Source of the DNA: Hansschlegelia quercus
GTDB lineage: Bacteria > Pseudomonadota > Alphaproteobacteria > Rhizobiales > Methylopilaceae
Direction: 5' to 3'
DNA: 64,000 bases
Assembly (NCBI RefSeq): GCF_004310425.1
Contig: NZ_SIUB01000002.1
Coordinates: 496,001-560,000, forward strand
The notes beneath the pieces were generated by a model. It searched no databases. It was not told the origin of the DNA and was given only the letters and a program-made list of their open reading frames with translations. This document shows positions 1 through 25,976 of the stretch, piece by piece (positions within the stretch are counted from its first letter, which is position 1; the number at the start of each line of letters is the position of its first letter). The translations under genes and the position numbers were made by a program.

Positions 1-574
1 CCGAAGTCAGTGTCTCTTCTCGTCTTAAATCGTCAGCTAGACGAGCTCCGTCTAGAACGAAGACGAGCGTCCTGGCCTTTACGATCTCCAAAAAGCCTTC
101 AACCTTTGCCGTGTTGTCGCGGATAGCTCGATAGCTTTCACCTGCGCGCTCGGTGATCAGAAGGTCGACGCGGTCTTGCCCGCTGTCGGTTGCTAAGCCG
201 AGATGAAAGAAACGCAGCCCTTCGCGGACTGAGGTCCGCTCGGTGTCCGGGATGGGCGCGCCCGTGATCATGCGCGCGAAATAGCATCGCCTTTCAAAGC
301 CGGCGAGCGTCCTGCTTCCAGCAAAGTGCAGTCCCGCAAACGGCCCGCGAAGAAAGCGTTCGTAAATCTCCGTCACGAGCGTGGTCTTGCCAGCCCACCG
401 CTCTCCGATCACCGCCACGACATTCGCGGCCCGCCAACGCATCAGAGCGTCGGCGTCCTCGATCGTCAGTAGATCCGCGTGCGGAAGCCAGAGCCGCTCT
501 GTGTCGGTTGGAGAGGTCTCTTCTGGTTTGGCCTGGTCGAATACGTCAAGATCGGTGTCTTTCTCCTCGATCAT
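1..574 (-). CDS. TRAFAC-like GTPase of a conflict operon (3' end outside window)
   Basis: Only the first 191 codons are inside the window; the gene continues past the left edge. The start at 574 overlaps the stop of the upstream gene by 4 bp (ATGA). Residues 53-66 read VAVIGERWAGKTTL, a good P-loop (GERWAGKTT, residues 57-65) after a hydrophobic strand. About 75 residues later comes VDLLITERAGESY, where a GTPase would show its DxxG switch; the Asp seems replaced by Glu. The pattern resembles the double-GTPase (DO-GTPase) family that sits beside GASH-type helical proteins in predicted NTP-dependent conflict systems. The P-loop is seen in the sequence; the family is from memory and the role is inferred. 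It could instead be another KAP- or STAND-like NTPase, because the diagnostic C-terminal half is missing. Confidence 0.72.
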   Translation of the reverse strand, partial: MIEEKDTDLDVFDQAKPEETSPTDTERLWLPHADLLTIEDADALMRWRAANVVAVIGERWAGKTTLVTEIYERFLRGPFAGLHFAGSRTLAGFERRCYFARMITGAPIPDTERTSVREGLRFFHLGLATDSGQDRVDLLITERAGESYRAIRDNTAKVEGFLEIVKARTLVFVLDGARLADDLRREETLTS

Positions 575-1620: not shown

Positions 1621-4600
1621 CTATCGGTGCGCCCTTCAGCTTCTGTTATTGCTTGCTCGAGATCCGCGAGCTTGCCGCGCTCGCTGGCTCGGATGAAGAC
1701 CCGCCTGAACCGCTCGAAATCTGGTTGCGCGATGTCGTTGTCTTCGAGCAAGGCAAGGCGGCCGACGATTTCGGATTTCTGACTAAATGTCAGTCCGTAA
1801 AACCGGATCCCGAGCTCGCGCAGCCTTGTCATTGTTTCCGGGCTAAGTCTTTGCTCGGCCGAGAGGATCTCGAACTCGTTTTTCCTTGGCGCTAAGATGG
1901 CATCGGCGATCTCAGAGTGGTCGAGAGCGCGACTGATGCGGGCGATACAGGCGGAAAGATCAGAGCATATCGGCGAGGATTGGTCGAGCGACCGTGTCGC
2001 CAGTTCTAGGAGGCTTCCCGCTTCGTCCGCCCTCCGCGTCGCGGCGATGCCGTCGGTCAAGCTCGGAGGTCTCGGCGGCGACGAGAGGATCGCATCGAGG
2101 TTCGAAACCCAACTTACTGGACCTCGAGCGTCGAGATCGTTGACGAACAAGTCGATTTCTTCAGCTTTCTCTCTTGCAGGTACCGATCCGCGATCCCTCA
2201 ATGTCGCATGGACGGCATAGCCAACCGGTACGATCCAGTCCTCCTGCCGCGCCGCGAACAGTCGGCGAAGAGCGACATGCGGGATAATCGGATTATTCCC
2301 ATGTTCCAGCAGCCACTGTGCGACGAGACGCATCGCAGGAGAATCCGCTTGGCGTCTCGGTCCGGTGCTCTGCCCGTCGCTTCCGCCCTGAAGCTCGGCC
2401 AACCTTCCGAGACCCTCGGCCCAACGTGAGGGCATTTCCCTAAGTTTTTCCCCGAGTGTCGTCTCTCGCGACAGATCAATAAGCGCACGGGCTTCCCCGC
2501 TCGAAACTGTGCCCGGATCATTATCGACAGCGAGCGCGGCCCAGTGATGCGCCAAGTTAGCGAACGCTTTATCGGCGACCGTTAGCGCCGCGCGCAGAGC
2601 CGCTCTGTCCCCCGATCCACCGCTCGCTAGCGGTAGTCCGCGTAGCAGATGACCCTCACAATGCGCATAGAGCGCGGCGTCCCTGTCCTTGGCCAAGGCG
2701 AGCAGATAGGCCGGGACGCGCCAATCGAACGACGTCTTCCTGCGCTCGATATGGAATAGAAGCCCCTCGATTAATTCCGACGCGCGTGGTGAGGCCAACT
2801 CCGACGTCGCCCGTCCGACGAACCATGCCAGCGAGACAGCGTCATGCGCCTCGGTCGGAACGAGCAATTCAGATGGATCGAGTTCGCGCCAGCGGCCCGT
2901 CTTGATCAACACTGACTGCCGGGCAATGCGGACGGAGGCTGGCATACGCTCGAAAATGACGGGCGAGTTTGGAAGAGCTACGAGACAAGCCTGCACCCTT
3001 CGCCCTTCCAGACGCCGCAGTCCGGCGCCGACGCGCGCCAGATGGGTGTAGGCCAACTCCGCCGGGAGCAGCTTGAAGGCATCGACCGGCATCAGTGGAC
3101 TGGCGCGGCTTCGCAGATAGGCTCTCACGGTTGCGGCGTGCGGCAGGTCCTTTTGCGCCCACGCCGTCGAGAAGTCGTCCGCGGACGGGCCCAGCCGGTC
3201 CACGATCTCACCAGGCGTTTCGGCGGCGAGAAAGGTTGGATCGTCGCCGGCGAGCAGCCGGTAATAGGCGGCTTCGGCCTCGTCGCCCTCGGCCCGGTAA
3301 TGCGAAAGAAGGGCGTCGACGAGCTTCTTGAATTTCACCGGATCGTGTCGGCACATCAGCGGCAGCGTGCGCCCTCGCAGGTCCGCTCGATGGATCAGCG
3401 TCTCCCCGTCGCGCTCGACGATCCAGATCTCGCGGGCCAAACGGTCAAACAGCCGATCGATATCGTCCTGCGGCGCCTCGATAATTGGTCCGATCACGCG
3501 TTTCAATAAGTCGCGGGTGATCTTGCGCGCGACGAGTCCGGGCCACGCGAGCGCCTTTAGCTCGGTCGGGACGTGGTCCAGCATCCGCTTCAAGAAAATC
3601 GCCCCAACGAAATTCTCCGAGGCGCTCTGCCCCAACTCGCCGATCTCTTCCACCACCTTGCCGCGCAGCTGAGGCTCGGTGTCGCGCACGAGCTCCACGC
3701 TCACCCGCAGGGTGAGCGGCTCGCGCCGCTGCTCGGGATCCGTGCGGGAGCCGACGATCCGTTTCGCCCACCGACGTTCCTCCCAATCATTGCCCATCAG
3801 CGCGGCGCCGAGCCTTTCCACCATGAGCCGGGCGTCGGTGACGTCGAGCGCCTTCAGCTCGATGGGTCGCGGTTCCATCGTCAGCCCGCGGATTGTGGAA
3901 AGTTCGACGATTTCGGCCCGTCCCGCGGCAACGATGCGCAGTTCCGGAAACGGCTGATTGCAAAGCCGTTCGATGAACTGTCGAATACCTTCGACGGCTT
4001 CTGGCACGCTCTGGACGATCTCCATCGTGTCGAGCGCCAGGAGAGCGACCCCCTGTTCGTATGCCGCCCCCCGCAACGTCTCCCGGAAGCTGTCAAAGAA
4101 GGTCCTCAACCGGGTCGGGTTGGCGCGTTCTTTCAGTCCAGGATCTGTATCGGCGGCCGACGAAGCCCACTCCCGGTCCACGATCCATTGGCGCATGTCG
4201 CGACGCAGGCGGCTCAGGTCGTCCGCTCGGCTTGGAAATTGGGCGCCAAGCTGCTTCGCGGCTTCGATGAGCAGCTGGGCCGGGTCCTTCGGCTGCAGCG
4301 AAGCGCGATCGAAATCGAAGTAGATGAAAGGCAGAGGCCGAACCGGTCCAAGGAAATGGTCGAGCGCAAACTTCGCCATCAGGGTTGATTTGCCGAGACC
4401 GCCGCCCGCCACGACGGTGAGGCCACGTGCGGATCCATCGTTTAAAAACGTCGCTGCAGTGCGCGTCACGCGGGTGAAGCTACGCGTCACCGCTTCGCTG
4501 ACTGAATGCGAGGCGAGGACATCGACAAAGCCCCGGAGACGCTTGAGTTCGTCCTCTCGGCCCGCGAAGCGATCGCCGCCGCCGTTTGGTGCGCCCACGA

Positions 4601-8542: not shown

Positions 8543-11500
8543 TCACGCCCTTTCCGGCAGCGGCGCGCGCGCGAACCGCTCGGTACCGTGGCCCAAAGCC
8601 TCTCTCAAGCCTGCAGACAGGCCCGTCGGCGGCATGGCTTCCCTGGACGCTAGCCGGGTGCGGCTGGCGCGCAACCTCTCGAAGGCGGCGGTGGCAAGTT
8701 CAGGATAGTTCTGGCTGTCGCCAAGCGCAGGTGCCGCGGCCTCCGACGATCCGGCTCCGAAGACGCGGTCCAGCAGGCCCGTCAACTGATCGAGAACGCC
8801 CGAACCCCTCTCGGGCGCCACCGCGTTCAGCGCGGCGAGCGGCTCTCGCTTCAGGGCCCCTTCGGCGTCCACGATGCCGGCCCCGTAGTTCGCGGTGTCG
8901 AATCCGCTGGGGACCTTCGCGGACAGGCGGACGACGGCGCGGAACATCTCCTGCAGGGTTCGACCCGGCGGGAGCTTCGCGATCAGCTCGTCGCGGCCGT
9001 GATGGGCCAGCCACAACGCCGCCACGCCGGCCATATGGGCGGTCGCGAACGAAGTGCCCTGGCCTCCGGACGCCGCGTTCGGCCCGGCCAGATTGCGCGC
9101 GTCGGCCCGCAGCACGAACTCGGCCGGGCCCGACACCGCGATGCTTGGGCCGGAACACGACCCACGCCACGGCTTTCCGGCCGCATTGACGCCCCCCAGC
9201 GCGATCACCTCGGGGTACCGGGCGGGCCAGACGACTTCGCCCACGCAGTTGCCAGCCGCCGCGAGCACGATGATGTTGGATTTGACGGCCGCCTGCACCG
9301 CGGCGCGTAGCGCGGCGCTGGAAATGCCGCCGAGGCTCATGGTGATGACATGCGCGCCCTTCAGCCGGGCATGGTTGATCGCCTGCGCCACCGGGCTCTG
9401 ATCGAAGACGGCGACGGACCGGACGCACCGGATCGGCGTGAGCGCCGCTTGCGGGGCCACGCCGCGCATGATCCCGGCCTTGGGACTAACCACGACGCTG
9501 CCTGTGCCGGTGCCATGGCCGGGGTTCGATCCGCCCGCCAACGGATCGAGCGCGCCCGGCTGCCCGAGTTCGACGAAGTTGGCCGCGCCGGCGGCCTCAT
9601 GGAGGCCGGCGCCGAGCTCGCTGTGTTTGGCGATGACGCCGGTGTCCGGCTGGAACACGCGGACGCCCTTGCCCTCGGCCGCTTTTCCCTTGGTCTGCGA
9701 TAGAGCCCAAGCCTCGGGCACCTTCGTGGTCTTAATCGCCCAGTCCTTGTCGGCCGGGCTGTCGTCGTCGTCGGCCCAGCACCAGAAGGTCAGCCCTCCG
9801 CTTTCCGGCCCCACAGATCTCGTTGCAGGCCGGTCGCCATCGAAGAAATCGGTTCCGAGATCCGGATCGACGGTCGACGCGCCGCTGATCCGCCGGACCA
9901 CGCGCGCGAGGTCGAACAGATCCGGCCGGTCGATCCGCGAGACGCCCGGTATCCGCAGCAGCCTGTGATTCTGTAGCTCGGGCGTCTCGTCAAACAGCGC
10001 CTGGACGTCGAGCGTGAGCCGCAGAGCCGACGACAGCGCCGCAGCCGTCGTGGCGTCGTCCGGCGCGTCACCCTCGAAGTTCAGCGTCATCCGGACATCG
10101 TCCTTGACGCCGCCTTGCTCCTGCTGGCGGAGCCAACCGTCGAGGATCGGCGAGAGATCGTCGAGCGCGAGATCGATGGGAACATCTGCGGCGGCCGCGT
10201 TCGCCGGATCCGAGGGTGACGCCGAACCGCCAGCAGCCGCGGCCAGCCCCGCATCGCGGCTTACGGCCTCGCCGTGCGCCGTGCCGGCCTGGTCTCCGTC
10301 GCGAACCATCTGCGGGAAGACAATATTCGCCGCCGCCTCAATCTCCGCGATCGTGCGCATCTTGGCGCGCCACACCGGTTCGACGGCGAACTCCCACTCG
10401 ACCGCGCTGAGATCCTGATCGAGCATGAAGCCGAAGGTCTGGACCTTGTCGTCGGCGACCGCGACGATGACCTTCCAAAAACGCGACGGGATCGGCACAC
10501 GCACCGTGCCGCTCTCGTCAACGCCCCTAAACTCGCGGTCGTTATCCGACAGCACCGGTGCGGCGAAGACGTTGAGGCGCTCCGCCGCGGCGGCGCGCAG
10601 CACCACGTTCTCGAGCGCTCCCCAATTGCGCGCCGCGGCGCGATTGAAGCCTGCGACCTGGGGCGAGCAGTTGGTGACATGGAACGTGTCGCCATTGGCG
10701 AAGCGGACCTCGTCATAGGTCCCGCCCCACGCGACGTCTTCGCGCCGCACGAGGTGGCCCTTGTCGAAGGCCTTGCGGTCCTTGCTGAAGAACAGGTCCG
10801 GCAACTGCTCGTTCGACGCGATGCGCGGGTCCGTGAACCAGCGCTCCTGGTCGTTGTCACCCATCCCCCCGAGGCCGTCGCGGGTGTAATCATGGTCCGG
10901 CCGCAACTCGGGCCGCTTGCGTGCCGGATTGGCGTCGACATTCGCCGCCGTCACCCAGGCGAGGCGGCGGCGCCGATGCATGATGACCGAGAAATGGTGA
11001 TAGGCGATCTCGACGCCGCCATCTGGAAACCGCACCGCGTCGGCGTTGTCCGCCGGCTGCGGCATCGGGATCTCGACGCCGAGGAATTTGGCGTCGTACC
11101 CCTTTCGGGTCCCGTAGTCGCGATCGCGGACCGGCTCGACTATCGCCTCGGTCGATGGAGCGGCGGCGGGAGCCGGCCACTTCGCGAGCGCCGAGTCGCC
11201 GGCCGCCTTGTGTGGCGCCACCATCGCGGGCGCGCCGGCCTCGATCGTGATGCGGATCGGAAGGTCGAACGTCATGCGCGGCGTGGCCGGGTCGGGGCGG
11301 ACGGCGCGTTCTTGCATTTCGAGCTCCTCCCAGGCTCGGTCACCCGCGTTCGCGCCGGGCGACGGCGTGTGGGCGAACCATACGCCGGCGTCGATCACGC
11401 GTGAGTCGAGATTCAGTGCGTGTGAGGGGACGCTGTAATTTGCCTCTAGGTAGCGTCCGCCGAAGTGCAGCCCGACGACGTGCCCATTCGCGATGTCGAT

Positions 11501-12385
11501 GACGGCCGATCCGGAATTGCCGCCGAGCGTCGAACTATCATGGGTCATCGCGAGGACGTTGTGATCGAAGCTCGTTACCGTCTGGCTGTCCTGCACGGTC
11601 CCCGGTTGGAGACGCTTGACGTTGTAGACTCCCCCGAACACCCGGTCTTGGACGGACGCGGAATTGCGCGGATCGAAAGCCGGGTAGCCGATGACAGCCA
11701 CCTCCTTTCGCCGCAGATCGTCTGGATGGGCGACGCTTAACTTTAGAGGCGCCGACGCCCTTCTAAGACCGGAGACCCTAAGCAGCGCCATGTCCCAGTA
11801 AGGATGGATCAGAACTACGTCGGCCACTCTCAGCAGTTCGTCGGGATCGTCCTCGCTCTCTTTCTTGAAATCGATTCCGGCGTGGTGCCCTGGGCGGAAC
11901 TTGAGAGCCGAAAGGCCCAGGCCGCTCGTGAAGATCTCTGCGACGTGGCGGTTAGTCATCAGCAGTTCGTCCCCGACCACGAAACCGGTGCCGCCATAGG
12001 GAAGCGTCGGATGGCCGGGCAGTTCGATCCGGCCGACCGACTGTAGCGCGGCCGTGATCACCCCTTTCGGTGCCGCTTTGTTGAGATGGACCCAAGAGGA
12101 ATGTGAGACAGAGTAGCTTCCACCGACGATCCGGATGGCGGGCCTCAACTCCGGCAGGATGATCGCTTCGAGGTTGAAAAGCTCGTTGGACGAAAGCGCC
12201 GCCCCGCGGTTGAGCTTGCTTGTGGCCTCGAGAGCGGCTTCTACCCCGGCCGCTCGGCTCGACCAATTTGGGGTCGACGCCTCTTCGCCGATCTCGCCGC
12301 CCAGCGCGACGAGTTTCTCTATCGTTGCTACACCCCCAATTTTTTGTAAATAATTCAGTAGTTTAAGCTCTTTATCAATTTTCAT
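8543..12385 (-). CDS. Trypsin-like protease / DNA-RNA non-specific endonuclease / subtilisin-like protease fusion
   Basis: One 1280-residue polypeptide carries three hydrolase domains. A trypsin-like protease comes first: TNRHVAEIF with His147, HPYWDMALL with Asp198, GGNSGSAV with Ser291. Next is a DNA/RNA non-specific endonuclease (NUC1 type): FDKGHLVRRED with His544, then TNCSPQVAGFNR and the metal-binding Asn segment NWGALEN. Last is a subtilase: VFQPDTGV with Asp914, GHGTGTGS with His957, oxyanion AAGNC, GQGTSFATAHMAG with Ser1112. Linkers around 385-420 and 705-740 (Ala/Pro/Gly-rich) could be cleavage sites. I chose ATG 12385 because GGGGAGG lies 7 bp upstream; a longer reading from 12475 lacks such a site. 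This is the first gene of the operon. No secretion signal, so it would act on cytoplasmic targets. The individual domains are clear; the combined function is inferred. Confidence 0.92.
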   Translation of the reverse strand: MKIDKELKLLNYLQKIGGVATIEKLVALGGEIGEEASTPNWSSRAAGVEAALEATSKLNRGAALSSNELFNLEAIILPELRPAIRIVGGSYSVSHSSWVHLNKAAPKGVITAALQSVGRIELPGHPTLPYGGTGFVVGDELLMTNRHVAEIFTSGLGLSALKFRPGHHAGIDFKKESEDDPDELLRVADVVLIHPYWDMALLRVSGLRRASAPLKLSVAHPDDLRRKEVAVIGYPAFDPRNSASVQDRVFGGVYNVKRLQPGTVQDSQTVTSFDHNVLAMTHDSSTLGGNSGSAVIDIANGHVVGLHFGGRYLEANYSVPSHALNLDSRVIDAGVWFAHTPSPGANAGDRAWEELEMQERAVRPDPATPRMTFDLPIRITIEAGAPAMVAPHKAAGDSALAKWPAPAAAPSTEAIVEPVRDRDYGTRKGYDAKFLGVEIPMPQPADNADAVRFPDGGVEIAYHHFSVIMHRRRRLAWVTAANVDANPARKRPELRPDHDYTRDGLGGMGDNDQERWFTDPRIASNEQLPDLFFSKDRKAFDKGHLVRREDVAWGGTYDEVRFANGDTFHVTNCSPQVAGFNRAAARNWGALENVVLRAAAAERLNVFAAPVLSDNDREFRGVDESGTVRVPIPSRFWKVIVAVADDKVQTFGFMLDQDLSAVEWEFAVEPVWRAKMRTIAEIEAAANIVFPQMVRDGDQAGTAHGEAVSRDAGLAAAAGGSASPSDPANAAAADVPIDLALDDLSPILDGWLRQQEQGGVKDDVRMTLNFEGDAPDDATTAAALSSALRLTLDVQALFDETPELQNHRLLRIPGVSRIDRPDLFDLARVVRRISGASTVDPDLGTDFFDGDRPATRSVGPESGGLTFWCWADDDDSPADKDWAIKTTKVPEAWALSQTKGKAAEGKGVRVFQPDTGVIAKHSELGAGLHEAAGAANFVELGQPGALDPLAGGSNPGHGTGTGSVVVSPKAGIMRGVAPQAALTPIRCVRSVAVFDQSPVAQAINHARLKGAHVITMSLGGISSAALRAAVQAAVKSNIIVLAAAGNCVGEVVWPARYPEVIALGGVNAAGKPWRGSCSGPSIAVSGPAEFVLRADARNLAGPNAASGGQGTSFATAHMAGVAALWLAHHGRDELIAKLPPGRTLQEMFRAVVRLSAKVPSGFDTANYGAGIVDAEGALKREPLAALNAVAPERGSGVLDQLTGLLDRVFGAGSSEAAAPALGDSQNYPELATAAFERLRASRTRLASREAMPPTGLSAGLREALGHGTERFARAPLPERA

Positions 12386-16954: not shown

Positions 16955-17629
16955 ATGTCTTCAGTTCGCTGCACCGCCTCGAAACTCAAGCCTCGCTCTG
17001 ACCTAAGGGCAAGTGACTTAGAGCGGGATTACGCCTGTCTGATCGAAGAAGCCTCGGACTCGACGGCCGCATTCAACATCCAGGTCGACGGTCCCGACCC
17101 ACTTGTAGAAACGTTGCTTCGCGCCGCTGGCGTTCGCCCGAACTCGACAGTCGTGACGCGCGCTCGCCACGAGGGATTGCGGTTCACGGTCGTCGTTGCG
17201 ACCACTGGCGTATGGCGCGACCAGATGGCGCGTTTGCTGTCGATGCGTCGCGCCGCAAGAAAACTAAATATCCGCGTTCTTTTAGTGCCTGCAGGCCGGC
17301 TGCGGCGACCGCTATTTCGCGAGAATTGCCGTCTTGTCTCGCGCTGCCGGGACATCGAGATCACCGCGTCCGATCGCGCCGCCGTCCTCGACCGTGTCGC
17401 ATTGGATCCGCATGCCACACTCGGTGATTGCGCCGCCTGCGTCGTCGCCTCCAATGATCCCGTTGGCGCGGTGTTGTCGTTGGCTGCTTCCGGTGCGATC
17501 GCGATCGACTTCAACTGCCACATCAACGGCTTCTCCCGGGTTTCGTCCCCGACAAACCGGCAGTGCATGCCGGTGGACCGCCTATACGCGGCAGCCGGGA
17601 TGCAGCTACTTGCGAGAGCCCGGTCATGA
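16955..17629 (+). CDS. Unknown 224-residue protein upstream of AAA-M41 protease
   Basis: I do not recognise a family. The protein is basic and has no signal peptide or membrane segment. Its middle shows strand-like segments (LRFTVVVATTGVW, LNIRVLLVPAGRLRR) and a helix-turn region. The end (GDCAACVVASNDPVGAVLSLAASGAIAIDF followed by HINGFSRVS) recalls in layout the C-terminal part of TnsA-type endonucleases, but no PD-(D/E)xK core is visible, so that link is weak. Its stop overlaps the start of the AAA-M41 gene (ATGA), so it probably serves that protease, perhaps as an adaptor or substrate. Confidence 0.75.
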   Translation: MSSVRCTASKLKPRSDLRASDLERDYACLIEEASDSTAAFNIQVDGPDPLVETLLRAAGVRPNSTVVTRARHEGLRFTVVVATTGVWRDQMARLLSMRRAARKLNIRVLLVPAGRLRRPLFRENCRLVSRCRDIEITASDRAAVLDRVALDPHATLGDCAACVVASNDPVGAVLSLAASGAIAIDFNCHINGFSRVSSPTNRQCMPVDRLYAAAGMQLLARARS

Positions 17630-19536
17630 ATGGCGAGTCTTCAGCCGGCATCGACGAGCTGGAGCTCGGCAACGAAGCAGATCCGCGCTCCTTCGCCCAA
17701 ATCCTTGTCGATAATGCAATCGACAGGGTTTTTACCGAGGAACTCGCCAGCGAATGCTGGGGGCGCCAGCTAACAGTTGTCCTCGAAGTTCCAAACGAGC
17801 AGTGGTCCGAGCGCGCCATTGCGCGGATCGCGGAAACCGTACGCGCGGCCGCAGTATCTGGTGGGGAGATCAAGGGCCATCTTCGGCCCTACACTTTCCG
17901 CCGGAAGCCTTCGCTTCAGACGCGCCCGACCGACGATGCACTTGCGATCGAAATGTTGAACGCCGTCGGACACGGGCGATCGATCATCGGCGTATTCAGT
18001 CCTAGTTCGGCGCCGCTGCCGCTGCTTACGGATCGCCCGGACGTACACTTGGAAACGGGAAGGCCTAGCCGTTCCGATATCGCCCGCGCAGTGCAGACCG
18101 CCACGGATCAGATCCTCGATCCGGACGCCCTCCCCCCGCTGGACGGTGGCGACCTCGATGGCCTTGCGCTGGCTGTTCGACCGAGAGCGTCGGCGGCTGA
18201 AACATGTTCGCGCTTGTTCGCCCTCGCTCGCCCGCCGATCTTCGATGAAGACGTGCCCGACCTCAGGGATTTCGCGGCTTTTGGCGAGGCTCGAGCTTGG
18301 GGACTTACGGTCCTCCGAGCTATCGAGCGGATCAAAAGCGGCGATCCAACTGCTGGTATGAATGACCTTCCGCGTGGGGTTCTGCTCGTTGGTCCTCCGG
18401 GCACTGGCAAGACGCTGTTCGCGAGCGCCTTGGCAAAGACCCTCGGAATCAACGCCATTCTGACCTCAGCTTCAGAGTGGCTTGCATCCGGAGACAGCCA
18501 CTTAGGAGCCGTCGTCAAAGCGATGAGGACCTCTGTGGAACAGGCTCGTTCGAGACGGCCGTGCATCCTTTTTATCGATGAATGCGACTCGATCGTCGAC
18601 CGTGATCTCGAACGAGGGGACAGCGTCAGCTGGTGGGTAAATTTTGTGAACGCAGTGCTCACTGCAGTGGACGGAGCTGTCCGAAACCGCGGAGTGATTC
18701 TGATCGGCGCCTGCAACAACATGAGCAGGGTGGATCCGGCCCTCCGCCGTTCGGGGCGGATGGAAAGGGTGATCGAACTTGGGCTGCCTACTGAATGCGA
18801 GCGCGAGGCGATCCTTGCTCACTACCTGAAGGGGGTTATCGATCCCGCGAGTGTCGCGACACTTGCACGGCGATCTGAGGGTCGCACGGGCGCCGATCTG
18901 GAGCGCGCGGTGAGGGAGGCGAAGGCTGCAGCCGCAGACGCCGAGCGGCAGATCCTTCTGCGGGACTTAGTCGAAGTGCTTTTCCCAAAATCGCACGCCG
19001 GTGAGAGCTCAAGACACGTCGCGGCTCATGAAGCAGGACACGCGGTGACTGCCGTCCTTCTTGGCGTTGAGGTCCGGCAGGTCGACCTTCGAGGCTTCAC
19101 CCGGCTTACCAACTCAGCGCTCCAGACCCGAGAGGCGATCGCAAAGCACCTCACCGTCCTAATGGCAGGACGAGCGGCGGACGAGATCCTGTGCGGTACG
19201 GCTGTGTCGGGCGCCGGGGGGTCAGCGCAATCAGACCTCGGCCTCGCGACAAAGCTCTCCTCGATCGGACATGCGGCTCTGGGCTTCGGCTCAACCCTAA
19301 GGTACCGCGCTGCCATTGATGGAGCCGCGGCGCTTATCGAGACCGATCCAGCTTTCGCGCGCCTTGTGGAGCGCGACCTGCAAGCCGCGCTCCGGCGCGC
19401 ACGCCGTCTGCTGCTGCGGCACAAAAACGCGCTCAAAGCTGTCGCCGTTCGTCTTGAGGCCGAGCATTTCCTCGACGGAGATCAGGTTGCGCAACTTGTT
19501 CGTGACAATCAGGGGGCCCGATCATGGATTATCTAA
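17626..19536 (+). CDS. Soluble FtsH-like AAA+ ATPase fused to M41 zinc peptidase
   Basis: 636 residues. The N-terminal 240 are unassigned. The AAA+ domain has Walker A GPPGTGKT (257-264), Walker B ILFIDE (314-319), sensor ACNN (362-365) and arginine-finger context ALRRSGRMERVI. The C-terminal peptidase has HEAGH (468-472) and the third zinc ligand in AQSDLGLATKL (Asp537), as in FtsH. Unlike FtsH no transmembrane segments are present, so it would degrade soluble proteins in the cytoplasm. ATG 17626 overlaps the preceding stop and was chosen over an earlier in-frame start for that coupling. A DUF6634 gene overlaps the 3' end. Such proteases are found in alphaproteobacterial accessory regions; the target is unknown. 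Confidence 0.9.
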   Translation: MNGESSAGIDELELGNEADPRSFAQILVDNAIDRVFTEELASECWGRQLTVVLEVPNEQWSERAIARIAETVRAAAVSGGEIKGHLRPYTFRRKPSLQTRPTDDALAIEMLNAVGHGRSIIGVFSPSSAPLPLLTDRPDVHLETGRPSRSDIARAVQTATDQILDPDALPPLDGGDLDGLALAVRPRASAAETCSRLFALARPPIFDEDVPDLRDFAAFGEARAWGLTVLRAIERIKSGDPTAGMNDLPRGVLLVGPPGTGKTLFASALAKTLGINAILTSASEWLASGDSHLGAVVKAMRTSVEQARSRRPCILFIDECDSIVDRDLERGDSVSWWVNFVNAVLTAVDGAVRNRGVILIGACNNMSRVDPALRRSGRMERVIELGLPTECEREAILAHYLKGVIDPASVATLARRSEGRTGADLERAVREAKAAAADAERQILLRDLVEVLFPKSHAGESSRHVAAHEAGHAVTAVLLGVEVRQVDLRGFTRLTNSALQTREAIAKHLTVLMAGRAADEILCGTAVSGAGGSAQSDLGLATKLSSIGHAALGFGSTLRYRAAIDGAAALIETDPAFARLVERDLQAALRRARRLLLRHKNALKAVAVRLEAEHFLDGDQVAQLVRDNQGARSWII

Positions 19537-19820
19537 CCGAGGCTGAACGGTTGGAACGGCTCGCTTGCGACTTGAGGCTGATGCACGCGAATGACGGCGC
19601 GCCAACGGTCAGTCAGCTCGAGGGAGCTCCGGTCCTAACAAACTGGTCTCGCGTACGCTTCCCCGTCAGGGGCTTCGTCGGGATCGTTAGCGGTCATCCG
19701 AGATTTGGCAGCAACAAAAGCGTCAGCACCAGCCAGGTGTGGACCGAAGGGAACGGCTGGGTCCGCACCCTCAGCCGATTTTATTTGCTTTCCGATCCCG
19801 AGAACGGCTCGAACGGCTGA
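19524..19820 (+). CDS. DUF6634-like small protein
   Basis: 98 residues, overlapping the protease gene by 13 bp. It carries the pattern I associate with DUF6634: LACDLRLMHANDG, LEGAPVLTNW, a GHP motif in VSGHPRFG, TSQVW, and the ending GWVRTLSRFYLL. No catalytic motif or membrane segment is visible and the function is unknown. Translational overlap places it in one operon with the 16955 and 17626 genes. The family name is from memory and would need a profile search. Confidence 0.8.
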   Translation: MDYLTEAERLERLACDLRLMHANDGAPTVSQLEGAPVLTNWSRVRFPVRGFVGIVSGHPRFGSNKSVSTSQVWTEGNGWVRTLSRFYLLSDPENGSNG

Positions 19821-20324
19821 GACGTGTTCGAGTCTTTGTGGCTGGCCCGATGAGGCTTCGTTCCTCATCGAGAGTCTTACAGTTCCAGGAACGCGACCGC
19901 CGAAGCTTAGCCCCAGCAACCTTCTGATATTGCCCGGGCGGGTTCTTCGTTTCTCAGGAAACAGCAAGAGTCAACTGCCTTATTTTGATTCGATCGACCC
20001 GCTTTTTTGAAAAAATATCGCGCAGTCGACTCGTGACTTTCTAGGTCTCGGGCGATGGTCGATGAGTGCCGGGCGATAGCTGCGGGCAACCTCGAAAAGA
20101 AAGGACGAGCGAAGGTCAAAATGAAAAGGCGTCCGACAGAAGTCGGACGCCTTCAAGAAAGTGCTTCGGGCCAAAGGCTAGCAACCAACCCCGAAACGCT
20201 TCGACGAAACCGGCCGAGACCTGTTTCACAGCCGCACTGAAGCGGCTGAGACCAGAGTCGCACGCCCCCCTGAAATTCACAAACGAGCCGGCGAAAAAAA
20301 ACTCTCGCCCGGCAAGGAGGACCT
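19821..20324 (+). other. Gene-free 0.5 kb leader before tnsA
   Basis: No coding frame is convincing. The stretch is less GC-rich in places (around 19980-20020). It has a strong hairpin (20126-20153), a weaker stem CAGCCGC/GCGGCTG near 20229-20248, and repeated GGGCGAT words near 20052-20076. It is where a Tn7-like end and the tnsA promoter would be expected, but no clear TGT...ACA terminal repeat was recognised. Confidence 0.5.
20126..20153 (+). terminator. Strong 12-bp hairpin with AGAA tetraloop
   Basis: AAGGCGTCCGAC and GTCGGACGCCTT pair perfectly over 12 bp. No long U-tract follows, so it could be a Rho-independent-like terminator of the AAA-M41 operon or a structural element near a transposon end. 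Confidence 0.5.
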
Positions 20325-21050
20325 GTGCCTGCATTTACCCCCAAACACCTTCTGGACTGCCCGGACACGCAGACCTTTGAGGTCTTCGCCGAGCCGCTTC
20401 CGAGCCGGGCGTCGCGCTTCCCGGCGCTGAAGTCGAAAGGCTCGTCACGCGGCGAAATCTACTGCGCCTCGTCTGGCCGCATCATCGTCTACGAAAGCGC
20501 TCTCGAACGCCGTGCCGCGGTGATCTGTCTGGCGTCCCCGGATGTCGTGGACATCTGGGATCAGCCGCCGCCGGTCATCTACACCATTGGCGCCGGCGGA
20601 ATCGAACGCCGTCACACCTTCGATTTCCGGTTGGTCCTGAAAAACTCCTGCCGGATCGCTGTCGCTGTCAAGCCCTATGAGCGGGCAATCGCGACGTGTT
20701 TTTTCCACCATATGCGCTTGATTGCTCGGCAGCTCGATCGGTCTTTCGCAGATAAGGTGGTCGTGCTCACCGAGCGCGAACTCGATCCGATTGCAGTGCA
20801 GCATGCGGAACTCGTGCTCATCGCGCGCCGCTCACACGACCCCGAAGCTGATGCTGCCATCCAGCACGTTGCCGCATCACTTATCGGAGCGGTTTCAGTA
20901 AACCAGCTCGTGGACCGCACGGGTCTCCAAGGACGGGGCTTCTACGCTATCGCTCGCGCGATCGGCATCGGCATGCTGCAGCCTGTCTCATACGGTCCCC
21001 TCTGCGGCTACACGATGGTCAAGTCGCTGGTTTCGGAGGGTCGCCTGTGA
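20325..21050 (+). CDS. tnsA: TnsA-like endonuclease of Tn7-like transposon
   Basis: 241 residues from GTG 20325, set by AAGGAGG five bases upstream. The PD-(D/E)xK nuclease core is visible: VYESALERRAAV (Glu57/Glu61), HTFDFRLV (Asp100) and IAVAVKPYE (Lys116). A helical region follows, ending in GLQGRGFYAIARAIGIG, compatible with the C-terminal helix-turn-helix of TnsA. In Tn7-type elements TnsA cleaves the 5' ends so that, with TnsB, the element is cut out completely (cut-and-paste). Its stop overlaps the tnsB GTG. It is first in a four-gene module. Confidence 0.88.
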   Translation: MPAFTPKHLLDCPDTQTFEVFAEPLPSRASRFPALKSKGSSRGEIYCASSGRIIVYESALERRAAVICLASPDVVDIWDQPPPVIYTIGAGGIERRHTFDFRLVLKNSCRIAVAVKPYERAIATCFFHHMRLIARQLDRSFADKVVVLTERELDPIAVQHAELVLIARRSHDPEADAAIQHVAASLIGAVSVNQLVDRTGLQGRGFYAIARAIGIGMLQPVSYGPLCGYTMVKSLVSEGRL

Positions 21051-23188
21051 CCAACGCTCCGCTCCGGCTCGCCATCACGGGCGACGATCGCGTCGTAATC
21101 GATTGCGTGAATTACCGCGTCCTCGAAACCTTCCCGAGCTATTTGCTCGCTCCGGTCGACAGCCCGCGCGAAATTCTTCAGCTCTCGCAGGAAGAGTTCA
21201 ACTCCGCGTCGGAAAGCAACCGCTTTTCGATCGACAGAAACTATTTCAACCTGCGTTCCGCTCGTGCCCGGCAGCTCGGCGGCACCAGCAGCATCATCCA
21301 CCTAAATTGGGAGGACCAGCAGATCATCCTGCATAGGCAGGACTGGGTCGATCGATTTTTGACGCTTGAGGAGGCGACCGCTCATCTAAAGTCACTCAAG
21401 CGGATCACGCGTTCCGATACAAAGATGGCCACGGCGATCGAGCTGATCGGGCGTGAACTTGCAGAGAAGGCGCGTATCACTACGAAACGGGCAGATGTTG
21501 CCGTAGGCAAGGCTTTCGGCTCACCGTCTGCCCGCACCTTGCGCAACTGGGTTTGCTTGTACGAACTTGCCAACTTCGATCCCTTGGCGCTGCGGGACCA
21601 GCGCTTTCGGAGTGGAAATCGTTCGCTTCGTTGCCATTCGAAAATCCACGCGCTGATGGTCAAGGCCCGGCGCGCCTACCTCAATCCGCGGCAGCCCCTG
21701 CTTAAGGACGTGTATTACGACCTGAAGAAGGACATCGAGGCGCTGAACGAGGTCCGCCGCGCACACCGCAAGGGCGCTCTCCCCGTCCCGTGCCAGGACA
21801 CCTTTTCGAAATTCATTCAGTCACTGGGGGAATTTGAGGTTTACGCCGGCCGGAACGGCTTAGAGGCTGCGCGTAAGAAATACTACGTCAGCAGCCGCGG
21901 CCAACTGATCACCCAGATTGGCCAGATCGTCGAGATGGACGAGTGGACGGTCCAGTTACACAAGCTGCTGATCGAGGCCGGGATATACGACGCCTTCTCT
22001 GACGAGGAGCGGGCGCTTATCGAGAAGACACGTTGGTCTCTGAGCGTTGCCGAAGACGCTGCAACGCGTTGCGTCATCGGCATGCGCATCGCACCGACCG
22101 CGAGCACGCAGAACGCTCTCGACACCTTGAAGATGTGCTTCGAGGACAAGTCCGCTTTTTCGGACGCCGCCGGTTGCGCGACCGCCTGGAAATTCCGGAC
22201 GGGTATGGCGCTGATGAGGACCGACAACGGGTCGCCTTATGTGAGCGAGAAATTCCGTCTCGCGGTGACAGCCGTCGGGGCAACCGCGGACCGCACGCCG
22301 GCGGGCCGGCCGCAACTTCGCGGCCGCATTGAAAGGCTGTTCTCGACGATCGCCACAGGTCTCACGACGCTGTTCGAGGGACGCACCTTCAAGGACGTCG
22401 TCGCAGGCGCCCACTATCCCTCTAGCGAGCGGGCGGTCTTGACGGTTGAGGAGATTGGACTGGCGATCTGCCGTTTTGTTGTCGACATTTACCATAACAC
22501 CCCGCATTCGGGACTGGGCGGCGACACGCCGGCAGAGACTTGGGCCCGGTTGGAAAAGGCGTCGGGGGTAATCCCTCTCCCGAGCGTAAACGTTCGGCGC
22601 GCGGTCTTTGGTCGTAAGGTTTGGCGGCGGATCACCGATCACGGCGTCGAAGTCGCGGGTCTCTTTTACCAGAGTGACCGGCTTCAGGAACGCCGGCGCA
22701 AGATCGGCGACGGCGCGAAGGTGGAGGTCAGCATTGACCTGGCCGACATTGGCCACGTCTCGGCCCGCTTGGACGAGGGTTGGATTGCCGTCCAGTGCTT
22801 GGACGATAGCGTGCAGGGCGTACCTTTTCACGAGTACGCACACGTTGCGAAGCAGGTTGAACAGGCGCGCGCCGAAAAACGCACCAACCTCGCCAAGATC
22901 ATCGACAACGCACGCCAATACCTACGCGATCTGAACCGCTCCGCGGTCAAACGCGCGAACATCGCCTCGCTCGAATTGTCCGACCGGGCGCTTGAGGCTG
23001 AGCTCAAGTCGCTCCAGGTCGGCTTCGGCCTGCCGCCAGCCTTCAACCAGTCTTCAAGGCAGACTGGCCTTGCCGACGGATTATTGGCAGGCGGTTACGC
23101 CGTCCCTGGAAGGCCGGGCGAAAAGACGATCGATAATGTCGGTCCAATCGGCGGTGATGACGACTTCGACCTGGAGGAGATGTCGTGA
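21047..23188 (+). CDS. tnsB: TnsB-like DDE transposase
   Basis: 713 residues with a retroviral-integrase/Mu-type catalytic core. The triad is Asp298 (IVEMDEWTVQL), Asp393 (MRTDNGSPYVSEKF) and Glu429 (RPQLRGRIERLF), which gives the diagnostic D-D-35-E spacing. Upstream lie helical DNA-binding segments (RTLRNWVCLYELANFD). After the core come the Mu-C-like beta-barrel (VNVRRAVFGRKVWRRITDHGV) and a C-terminal tail likely to contact TnsC. It cuts and joins the 3' ends of the element. It starts at GTG 21047, overlapping tnsA, and its stop overlaps tnsC. Confidence 0.95.
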   Translation: MTNAPLRLAITGDDRVVIDCVNYRVLETFPSYLLAPVDSPREILQLSQEEFNSASESNRFSIDRNYFNLRSARARQLGGTSSIIHLNWEDQQIILHRQDWVDRFLTLEEATAHLKSLKRITRSDTKMATAIELIGRELAEKARITTKRADVAVGKAFGSPSARTLRNWVCLYELANFDPLALRDQRFRSGNRSLRCHSKIHALMVKARRAYLNPRQPLLKDVYYDLKKDIEALNEVRRAHRKGALPVPCQDTFSKFIQSLGEFEVYAGRNGLEAARKKYYVSSRGQLITQIGQIVEMDEWTVQLHKLLIEAGIYDAFSDEERALIEKTRWSLSVAEDAATRCVIGMRIAPTASTQNALDTLKMCFEDKSAFSDAAGCATAWKFRTGMALMRTDNGSPYVSEKFRLAVTAVGATADRTPAGRPQLRGRIERLFSTIATGLTTLFEGRTFKDVVAGAHYPSSERAVLTVEEIGLAICRFVVDIYHNTPHSGLGGDTPAETWARLEKASGVIPLPSVNVRRAVFGRKVWRRITDHGVEVAGLFYQSDRLQERRRKIGDGAKVEVSIDLADIGHVSARLDEGWIAVQCLDDSVQGVPFHEYAHVAKQVEQARAEKRTNLAKIIDNARQYLRDLNRSAVKRANIASLELSDRALEAELKSLQVGFGLPPAFNQSSRQTGLADGLLAGGYAVPGRPGEKTIDNVGPIGGDDDFDLEEMS

Positions 23189-24186
23189 TCGCCGCCGACG
23201 CCCTGCTGTCGACTGCCGCCGCAAACGTGGTCAATAGCTACGTGCCCGTCACCGAGCGAGACAAGAAGTTGGCCAGCGAGGTCGACCGTCTCGTGCAGAT
23301 CGCGCTTTCCCGCACTGAATCGCATGGTGGGACCCCGCCGCGCGAAGCGCCCGGTCTGCTGGTCGTCGGCGCCAGCGGCGCGGGCAAAACCACCGCGATC
23401 CACCACATCCTCGGCCGGCATCCACGCCTGAAGAACTTCGGCGTGGAGGGTGAGCTCTGCCCGATGATCTCATTTGATGCGCCGGCGCCGACGACCCTCC
23501 TCCAGCTCGGTCGCGAGCTGCTGCGTGCGACCGGTTATCCGATCATGAACGACCCGAAGCGCCACATTGTTTGGGAGATGGTCCGTGACCGTCTCCGCCT
23601 AACTGGTGTCGTCGCCATCCACATTGACGAGTTTCATAACGTCACGCGAACCGCGAACTCGATCGAACGCGACCAGATCCTCGCGACGCTTAAGTCGCTC
23701 TTGAACGACCGGCATTGGCCGGTCGCACTGCTGCTGTCGGGACTGCCTGAAGTCGTCGACTTCGTTAACGCTGATCCTCAGGTGGCGCGGCGAATGCGCG
23801 CTATTTCGTTCAGCCGGTTGGTAGCGCCAGTCGATGTTCCGTTCGTCGGAAAGATTGTCGTCAAGCTGACGTCGAAAGCGACATGCCCCTGCCCCGGCGG
23901 ATTCTCGGAGGAAATCGCGCCGCGGCTCATCCATGCGGCGGACGGCTCATTGGGGATCCTCGTCGAAATAATCGTCGAAGCGATCGGACACGCCCTACGA
24001 CGCGCCGAACCCCTCTGCATTCAGCATTTTGAGGACGCGTACGCGCTTCGCACCGCGTGCTCACGATCCGTGAACCCGTTCGCGGCAGAGGAGTGGGAGA
24101 CAATTGAGGTAACTCGTCTTCTCGCTACGACGCCACAGAAGGAACCCGCCCCCGGAAAACCGCCCCGCGGCGGGAGGAAGGCCTAG
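23185..24186 (+). CDS. tnsC: TnsC/TniB-like AAA+ transposition regulator
   Basis: 333 residues. Walker A is GASGAGKTT (62-70) and Walker B VVAIHIDEFHN (142-152), followed by LLLSGLPEVVDFV, the sensor-1 strand typical of TniB and TnsC. These ATPases form filaments on target DNA and bridge the target selector (TniQ) and the TnsA-TnsB transposase. The size is nearer to TniB than to the long TnsC of Tn7. It starts at GTG 23185 overlapping tnsB and ends 2 bp before tniQ, so the whole module is one operon. Confidence 0.93.
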   Translation: MIAADALLSTAAANVVNSYVPVTERDKKLASEVDRLVQIALSRTESHGGTPPREAPGLLVVGASGAGKTTAIHHILGRHPRLKNFGVEGELCPMISFDAPAPTTLLQLGRELLRATGYPIMNDPKRHIVWEMVRDRLRLTGVVAIHIDEFHNVTRTANSIERDQILATLKSLLNDRHWPVALLLSGLPEVVDFVNADPQVARRMRAISFSRLVAPVDVPFVGKIVVKLTSKATCPCPGGFSEEIAPRLIHAADGSLGILVEIIVEAIGHALRRAEPLCIQHFEDAYALRTACSRSVNPFAAEEWETIEVTRLLATTPQKEPAPGKPPRGGRKA

Positions 24187-24188
24187 CC

Positions 24189-25976
24189 ATGCGCCTCAAC
24201 CTCCGCGTCGATCTTCTCAAAGGTGAGAGCCTCGCGAGCTTTCTCTGCCGCTTAGCCGCAGTGAACGGCGTTCGCCTGCAGGCTTTTTGCAGCCACCTTG
24301 GGATCAGTTCTCGGTCTTTGATCGACGGGGACGTCCTCGCAATTGCGAAGGTCGCTACTTTGGCCGCCGTTGATCCACGAGCATTAATGGAAGAGGCCGT
24401 CATCAAAGTGGAGACTGGCTTCAAGTTGCGGGGCGAACTCCTGCAGCGGAGCAGCCTCCACAGGCAGGAGCTGTTCGTCTGCCCCGCATGCCTGCAGGAA
24501 GACGCCAGCGTCGGCAGCGCCACGTACATTCGGACGCTCTGGCAGGTGGAGCATCTCCGTGCTTGCCCGATCCATGACATCGAACTCTCAGATTTGGGAA
24601 CACCCCGCAATCCGTCAGTCTCAGACGATGTGCTTGCTCGTATCGAACCTCACCTCGCGGAGCTCAAACTATTGACCGCGGCGGCGCCGCGCGCCCTACC
24701 CTCGACGTTCGAGCTCTACGTGCGCAATCGGCTCGGGACGCGGCGCCAAGCTCATCCTTTTCTGGATGAGCTTGAACTGCATGCTGCTGCCCGCTTTTCC
24801 GAAATGCTCGGTGCGACTGCGTTGTATGGCCTCTGGCCTGCTCTTCAGCAATTTACCGTGGCCGCCCGGCGAGCGGCAGCGGATGAGGGTTTCGGAATTG
24901 CGTCGCTTGGAACTGACGCCATTCGAGCATTCTTAGGCAAGCTTCAGACCGACCGCACGGGCTCTGGTGGGGGGCCCCAGGCGGTCTTTGGGAGCCTGTA
25001 TAATTGGGTCGCCCGAGGCGCCCCTCACCCAGCTTTTGACCCTATCCGCGATGTCTTCCGAGAGCACATCGTTGAGACGATGCCTGTGGCCGCTGGCGAA
25101 GTCGTCCTCGGGCGGAAGGTCGAACGTCGGATCGTTCACTCAGTTCGTTCGATGCATCGTGAGACAGGGCTGCACCCTAAACGGCTGAGGAAGATCTTAG
25201 AAGCTTCCGCCAGATCTGAAACCGCGCGATCGAACGGTCCCAACATCCTTATTGAGGCCGATCGCGGGGCTGAGCTCATGACCCCATTCGTCGACGCTTT
25301 GTCGCTGAAGGAAGCCGCCACGTACTTAGGCTCAGATCGTGTTCATACGCGTTTGCTGCTGACCGCCGGGTTCATCCAATCGCTGAGCGCGACGGGCGGC
25401 AGAATGGCTTTCGCGAGGTCCGACCTGGACGCATTTCTGTCTACGCTGAGAGAAGGCGCAGACACGCTATCCCCTGATGATCCGCACGCGGCGTCTTTGC
25501 CGCTCGCGGCGAAACGGGCGAACTGCTCCGCAATGGAGATCGTAAAACTGGTGATTGAAGGCAGACTCGCGCGCCGCGGTAGTTTTCCTGGAGCGAGCGG
25601 GTATTTAGCGCTGCTGGTAGACTTTACCGAGGTGCGAAGTCTCGTTCGGGGCGCTCCGCTTGAGGACCTGCCTCGCCGCCGAGTCATCAAGGAGTTGAAA
25701 ACGACTTCCACCGTTGTGGACGCGTTGATCAAGCACCGAATGCTACTTACAGAATCTCGGATCAACCCCTCGAACCGTTGCCCAGTCGAGGTCGTGCCCC
25801 GAAAGGCTCTGGACGCCTTCCGGCAAACCTACGGAACTCTGTTCGAAATCGCGGCGGAGAACGGGTGTCACCATTTGAGGATGAAGGCGACACTCGAGAG
25901 CCGAGGCATCCAGCCGGCGCTTCCCCGCGAGACCTTCCACGCATCGTTTTATCGCAGAGCCGATTTGCAGCCTTAG
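24189..25976 (+). CDS. tniQ: TniQ/TnsD-family target-selection protein
   Basis: 595 residues. The N-terminus has the TniQ pattern (ESLASFLCRLAAVNG) and a zinc ribbon with VCPACL (Cys98, Cys101) and RACPIHD (Cys126, His129). The long C-terminal part has several probable helix-turn-helix blocks (LKEAATYLGSDRVHTRLLLTAG; LAAKRANCSAMEIVKLVIEG) suited to sequence-specific DNA binding, so it is TnsD-like rather than a short TniQ. It would choose the insertion site; which one is unknown. No Cascade or Cas12k genes are nearby, so there is no sign of a CRISPR-guided version. Confidence 0.92.
   Translation: MRLNLRVDLLKGESLASFLCRLAAVNGVRLQAFCSHLGISSRSLIDGDVLAIAKVATLAAVDPRALMEEAVIKVETGFKLRGELLQRSSLHRQELFVCPACLQEDASVGSATYIRTLWQVEHLRACPIHDIELSDLGTPRNPSVSDDVLARIEPHLAELKLLTAAAPRALPSTFELYVRNRLGTRRQAHPFLDELELHAAARFSEMLGATALYGLWPALQQFTVAARRAAADEGFGIASLGTDAIRAFLGKLQTDRTGSGGGPQAVFGSLYNWVARGAPHPAFDPIRDVFREHIVETMPVAAGEVVLGRKVERRIVHSVRSMHRETGLHPKRLRKILEASARSETARSNGPNILIEADRGAELMTPFVDALSLKEAATYLGSDRVHTRLLLTAGFIQSLSATGGRMAFARSDLDAFLSTLREGADTLSPDDPHAASLPLAAKRANCSAMEIVKLVIEGRLARRGSFPGASGYLALLVDFTEVRSLVRGAPLEDLPRRRVIKELKTTSTVVDALIKHRMLLTESRINPSNRCPVEVVPRKALDAFRQTYGTLFEIAAENGCHHLRMKATLESRGIQPALPRETFHASFYRRADLQP

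Follow-up and report, generated by a model that had tools for sequence, protein, structure and literature searches.

A trypsin-nuclease-subtilase protein of Hansschlegelia quercus heads an operon that appears to link a CARD-NLR protease cascade to a GTPase module

What does a protein with two proteases and a nuclease in one chain do, and what controls it? The question is raised by P1, a protein of 1280 residues encoded on the minus strand at 8543..12385 (stop codon included) of a 64,000-nucleotide stretch of Hansschlegelia quercus DNA (contig NZ_SIUB01000002.1, positions 496,001 to 560,000; hereafter the window). Its domain order is trypsin, NucA endonuclease, I9 propeptide and subtilase. P1 probably acts as the executioner in a layered system of anti-virus cell death. 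Its gene is the first of eight in an operon that appears to couple an inflammasome-like alarm to a separate alarm based on GTPases.

The P1 frame starts with an ATG at 12385, preceded by a good ribosome-binding sequence (GGGGAGG), and stops at 8543; the plus-strand frame across 8543-12385 is full of stops. Three Pfam profiles matched P1, all above their curated cut-offs. The trypsin-like protease (residues 111-340; 11366..12055, minus strand like all parts of P1 and the rest of the operon) matched Trypsin_2 at 132-306 (E 1e-18) and has the triad His147/Asp198/Ser291. The NucA/EndoG-type endonuclease (residues 421-698; 10292..11125) matched Endonuclease_NS at 456-694 (E 7e-32), with His544 within DKGH, Asn581, and Glu592 in the motif NWGALEN that begins at Asn587. 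The subtilase (S8) catalytic domain (residues 867-1183; 8837..9787) matched Peptidase_S8 at 905-1131 (E 2e-22), with Asp914/His957/Asn1046/Ser1112. Relatives came from a short-exact-seed scan of 84,980 species genomes, which gave at least 55 loci. The trypsin triad is kept in 58/58 related chains, His544 in 49/51 relatives, and the S8 Asp, His, Asn and Ser are invariant or nearly so among 18 aligned subtilases. AlphaFold2 gave confident folds for all three enzymes, and Foldseek grouped the trypsin with Esp/DegP-type proteases and the nuclease with EndoG and the Serratia nuclease. A first run on residues 81-1280 had given the subtilase a predicted local distance difference test (pLDDT) below 50 because the alignment was poor in that region; a dedicated alignment for residues 760-1280 mended this (pLDDT 88, predicted template modelling score 0.92). 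Degenerate domains are ruled out by residue conservation and the structure models. An earlier interpretation made from the letters alone (the sequence-only reading) had proposed these three enzymes in one chain, with intact active sites. Both claims are confirmed, far beyond chance, by the Pfam matches, the catalytic residues at the positions it gave, their conservation in relatives and the lack of any membrane-like stretch.

That reading had also seen no secretion signal, and indeed a Kyte-Doolittle scan found no hydrophobic N terminus or membrane segment in P1, no dedicated signal-peptide predictor having been run; the highest 19-residue mean (1.35) lies within the S8 core. Subtilases and NucA-type nucleases belong to frequently secreted families, and P1 might be a secreted exoenzyme or a polymorphic toxin directed at other cells. 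With neither a signal peptide-like stretch nor a trafficking domain, no adjacent immunity gene and an operon containing cytoplasmic NTPases, we regard this as very improbable.

The sequence-only reading placed low-complexity linkers between the enzymes. The description fits linker 2 (residues 699-762; 10100..10291), which is rich in Ala, Pro, Gly, Ser and Asp, but not the residues after it: 764-841 (9863..10096) form an I9-type subtilisin propeptide of beta-alpha-beta-beta-alpha-beta order. It fits linker 1 (residues 341-420; 11126..11365), partly of low confidence in the model, only in part, since the alignment shows W352 and P376 invariant in 43/43 trypsin-NucA relatives. Position 356 of linker 1 is acidic in 40/43 of the same relatives and would be a second, weaker candidate cleavage site. 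The motif W...(D/E)...xPLxITxxLG (window 11234-11332, P1 352-384) is near-invariant in these 43 relatives despite variable surroundings.

In the dedicated model, the propeptide domain is followed by a disordered loop (845-865, pLDDT <50), the subtilase and a helical C-terminal tail (residues 1186-1280; 8546..8830), the latter with a conserved LSAGLR..LG and 41-44% identity in Hoeflea, Asticcacaulis and Pseudomonas chlororaphis. Foldseek returned unprocessed pro-subtilisin E (3whi) and pro-Tk-subtilisin, with matches spanning propeptide and catalytic domain over about 430-470 columns. Because of the I9-type fold and these unprocessed pro-subtilisin matches, the modelled subtilase looks like a zymogen. 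Pfam Inhibitor_I9 had no match in P1 at E 0.1, and the propeptide was assigned by fold.

The loop between propeptide and subtilase (residues 845-866; 9788..9853) holds Glu861 (codon 9803-9805), a candidate activation cleavage site. Glu is present at the equivalent position in 11/11 subtilases that share a chain with a trypsin or are encoded right next to one. That position has no Glu in L014, L016, L017 and L019 (L numbers denote loci), which have no such trypsin nearby, and L018 is ambiguous. In glutamyl endopeptidases, the S1 residues are a Thr five positions before the catalytic Ser and the His of a GxH motif. Both are present in the P1 family (Thr286 and His307, each 58/58), the best solved sequence relatives of the P1 trypsin are the V8/Esp glutamyl endopeptidases, and all three trypsins of the operon have the Thr at S-5 and the His in a GLH motif. 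From this V8-like signature a Glu preference is predicted for all three, matching the conservation of Glu861. The propeptide fold, the conserved Glu and the S1 signature are read directly from the sequence, as are the domains, their intact active sites, and the operon with its module order; the association of Glu861 with trypsin linkage is a correlation among related sequences, not proof.

The genes downstream of P1 share its strand and are either separated by at most 9 bases or overlap by 4-8 bases. P2 (7379..8539, 386 residues) is a second trypsin-like protease (Trypsin_2, 4e-9) with its catalytic motifs present, and has orthologues in Hoeflea (L020), Asticcacaulis (L021), P. chlororaphis (L036) and L029. 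P3 (5231..7369, 712 residues) combines a Death-like/CARD-type bDLD2 domain (6-97, 1.8e-38), a trypsin (Trypsin_2, 2.6e-12) and a C-terminal P-loop-like region with the motif DEGAGKT at 431. A sequence search of this bDLD2 against solved CARD structures found no match, and the equation of bDLD2 with CARD rests on the literature. P4 (1617..5234, 1205 residues) is an NLR-like (STAND) ATPase with the P-loop GGGLGKST at 277. It aligns to the NLRs of L020, L021, L036, L029 and L045, several of which have weak to clear NACHT/NPHP3_N matches, and ends in a GAAD domain (residues about 1138-1198; 1641..1823; Pfam 2.1e-16). PADLOC gave only weak generic matches, and no relatives of P1 or P4 were found in viral contigs.

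The remaining genes form a complete GTPase module by Pfam. P5 (571..1620, 349 residues) is a GASH protein (PF19994, 5.8e-37), and the first part of P6, a DO-GTPase2 (PF19993, 1.7e-42), occupies 1..574. DNA fetched beyond the window edge to complete the operon (L075) contains the rest of P6 (L075:11649-12575), followed by a DO-GTPase1 (P7; L075:10762-11652; PF19975, 5.2e-69) and a GAP1-N1 protein (L075:8775-10769; PF20012, 2.9e-28). In GAP1-N1 systems one DO-GTPase begins with a zinc ribbon; a Pfam scan, the only search made for it, found no zinc ribbon in P6 or P7. Two described systems, a CARD-NLR/LypABC-like system and a GAP1-N1 GTPase module, are thus joined within one operon.

Are the two halves functionally coupled, or independent neighbours that are merely co-transcribed? 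The homologues of P1-P4 in L020, L021, L036 and L029 have no GTPase genes within the fetched flanks, and elsewhere the GTPase module pairs with a metallophosphoesterase: the order GAAD protein, GASH, DO-GTPase2, DO-GTPase1, GAP1 seen in this operon recurs in an Aeromonas plasmid (L083) and one further genome, both with a metallophosphoesterase-GAAD. Here, however, the NLR itself bears GAAD, the adaptor domain of the GTPase system, and stands at the place occupied by the effector-GAAD gene in other GTPase operons. No second GAAD was found in the genome, and the operon genes overlap by 4-8 bp. The nearest NLRs of P4 stop short of GAAD in the alignment or bear a pYEATS domain at that place, and the P4 GAAD is up to 63% identical to that of Aeromonas metallophosphoesterases. 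GAAD is rare, passing the cut-off in 2/385 and 3/398 sampled genomes, the window's own genome included. We consider independence of the two halves rather unlikely. As a separate observation, the NLRs of the related operons L029 and L045 carry a C-terminal pYEATS where P4 has GAAD, as in a swappable C-terminal plug.

For the order of the cascade, the cleavage sites, the coupling of the two modules and the anti-phage role, we infer the following scheme. At rest, P1 would be a three-enzyme proenzyme, with the I9-type propeptide holding the subtilase and the nuclease tethered between the two proteases. The GTPase module (GASH, DO-GTPase2, DO-GTPase1, GAP1-N1) would act as the switch, driving assembly of P4 via its C-terminal GAAD, and assembled P4 would gather the CARD-type protease P3, and P2. 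These V8-like, Glu-preferring proteases would then cut P1, including at Glu861 and possibly in linker 1, and the freed active subtilase and nuclease would destroy the infected cell's proteins and nucleic acids. Taken as a whole, with P1 as the proenzyme executioner of an abortive-infection operon of the NucA-trypsin/CARD-NLR kind driven via the GTPase module, we find this scheme moderately probable. The stricter proposal, of two relays wired in series (DO-GTPase/GAP1/GASH to GAAD to NLR to a Glu-specific protease cascade, with the zymogen subtilase activated and the nuclease freed from the polyprotein), is more tentative, the case for it being nearly balanced. The sequence-only reading had suggested an effector under internal control and set free by proteolytic cleavage; this stands as the best reading and agrees with the 2020 proposal for such architectures (PMC7159879) and with trypsin-activated nucleases (PMC12799240). 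Its idea that cutting the linkers liberates the nuclease is still a conjecture, and it had not seen the operon, the subtilase propeptide with its Glu loop or the earlier publication of the architecture.

Several points weigh against the scheme. Two Mesorhizobium loci (L035, L039) lack Glu861, though their subtilase lies about 1.7 kb from a trypsin-NucA gene. The trypsin-linked subtilases are related, and conservation of Glu861 may reflect shared descent. In some V8-like proteases, the S1 residues do not settle specificity. The joined CARD-NLR/GTPase operon was met once only, so that the GAAD coupling rests on a single locus; no further NLR-GAAD hybrids were found in 72,556 plasmids or about 370 genomes of the class. 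Cleavage of P1, its nuclease activity and phage defence are themselves predictions. Finally, in LypC, the trypsin-endonuclease protein of the CARD-NLR-like operon LypABC of Caulobacter, the nuclease variants H471A/N505A still lyse, so the nuclease residues are dispensable there (PMC13236601).

The LypC result bears on what P1 kills with. The S296A variant abolishes lysis, making the trypsin serine essential, and LypC of Caulobacter endophyticus has no nuclease (PMC13236601); LypABC supports a need for the trypsin heads, yet cautions that the killing may not be done by the nuclease. P1 might then be mainly a protease, with trypsin and subtilase doing the work, that activates some lytic factor, as proposed for LypABC, with the nuclease as an auxiliary or folding cassette. 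Consistent with this, P. chlororaphis has a trypsin-subtilase chain in which the nuclease is cleanly missing but P2-P3-P4 are present, and the rhizobial relatives likewise combine trypsin and S8 without a nuclease in otherwise similar operons. However, the nuclease active site is retained in nearly all relatives examined (see above), the NucA domain is 55-57% identical in Hoeflea and Asticcacaulis, a conservation equal to that of the trypsin, and most relatives retain a nuclease, some of an unrelated type (Endonuclease I). We therefore view a mainly protease-based role as doubtful and keep the proenzyme with nuclease and subtilase as the preferred reading.

The relatives also show how the chain is assembled. 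In Hoeflea and Asticcacaulis the three domains come in the identical order, and the P2, P3 and P4 genes follow as they do here. In Rhizobium phaseoli, Sinorhizobium and Ruegeria, a reversed subtilase-trypsin chain adjoins another trypsin gene, and an ATPase-like gene is also present at the reversed-chain loci of R. phaseoli and Ruegeria. In Polaromonas a subtilase-trypsin chain occurs together with genes for a P3-like protease and an ATPase, and NucA has a gene of its own; in Bosea, a planctomycete and another metagenome-assembled genome the subtilase is an adjacent gene. The cassettes found behind the trypsin head are NucA, NucA+S8, S8, Endonuclease I, Lipase_3, NucA+S41, NucA+alpha/beta-hydrolase (DUF900) and AAA ATPase. 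Because such varied domains sit behind the same head, the sequences indicate a constant trypsin head to which effectors are attached as interchangeable cassettes, as in an effector carrier. P1 was not found in 12 genomes of the same genus, which is consistent with horizontal acquisition.

The P1 architecture is not new. A trypsin and a subtilisin flanking NucA in one polypeptide were described in 2020 as 'System 3' by Kaur et al., who also proposed a proteolytic cascade for the NucA-trypsin architecture (PMC7159879). As given there, System 3 shares with the P1 locus the trypsin+NucA core, the subtilisin flanking NucA in one chain, several trypsin paralogues, bDLD2 with a STAND NTPase, and an occurrence mostly in alphaproteobacteria. 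In contrast to its description of a fused bDLD2-trypsin-STAND protein, the NLR P4 is separate here from the bDLD2-trypsin P3 and carries GAAD, and a complete GAP1-N1 module follows. The System 3 section does not mention an I9 propeptide accompanied by a conserved Glu loop, nor do the relevant main-text sections, supplementary tables aside, mention a GAP1-N1 hybrid with a NucA-trypsin operon.

Like LypABC (PMC13236601), the operon has a CARD-type domain-trypsin-ATPase protein (P3), an NLR-like ATPase (P4) and a trypsin-endonuclease protein (the first half of P1). Unlike LypABC and the Lysobacter CARD-gasdermin system (Wein et al. 2025, as cited in PMC13236601 and PMC12409349), no gasdermin was found here, P1 adds a propeptide and a subtilase, and there are an extra trypsin (P2) and the GTPase module. 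GAP1-N1 GTPase-centric systems were also described by Kaur et al. 2020. Compared with the example on the Aeromonas plasmid, identities are 63% for GAAD, 44% for GASH, 44% for DO-GTPase2, 54% for DO-GTPase1 and 39% for GAP1, but the GAAD carrier is the NLR of a protease cascade and not a metallophosphoesterase. Trypsin-activated MBL-type nucleases have been shown experimentally in phage defence, in Hachiman/AVAST and canu pairs (PMC12799240). They share with P1 a trypsin-type protease and a nuclease in an immune operon, with activation by cleavage there and proposed here. The nuclease of these pairs is of the MBL type and encoded by its own gene, whereas that of P1 is of the NucA/His-Me type and fused; P1 is not a member of that group.

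The P1 chain by itself extends a published architecture by one member; the operon offers a natural experiment on how bacterial immune modules are combined. One NLR backbone can end without a further domain, in pYEATS or in GAAD, and one GTPase module can carry either a phosphoesterase or an entire protease cascade of the CARD type. If the two relays are indeed wired in series, GAAD would be a portable plug giving a GTPase sensor control over an NLR. The operon makes testable the partner of GAAD, the DO-GTPase/GAP1 proteins as sensors upstream of NLRs, and the subtilase as a caspase-like zymogen activated at one conserved Glu.

The N-terminal module of P1 (residues 1-110; 12056..12385) has a counterpart in relatives, with 27-52% identity by BLAST. 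Among the relatives, a Rokubacteriota trypsin-NucA-S41 chain (L055:9854-13753) is another case of NucA sandwiched between two proteases, here with an unrelated protease at the C terminus. The myxobacterial loci L058, L068, L069 and L072 have Endonuclease I in place of NucA behind the trypsin head. In Massilia (L060, L063, L066), about 600 residues follow the trypsin head and are candidate new effectors; L060 and L063 have no other Pfam match there, L066 not having been scanned. A Rhizobium sp. TH2 plasmid (L082:8425-15053) has a truncated homologue of the P4 STAND protein, 40% identical, opposite a GDSL-lipase/amidase/M74/subtilase protein of 1716 residues. Past the operon, L075:2303-7190 (minus strand) encodes one more trypsin-like protein along with a DUF6361 and a PLD-like protein, which may form a further defence module. 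Finally, the plus strand of the window carries Tn7-like genes at 17563-25976, namely a TnsA-like gene (below cut-off), an rve/Mu-type transposase, TniB and TniQ, with an FtsH-like AAA-M41 gene ahead of them.

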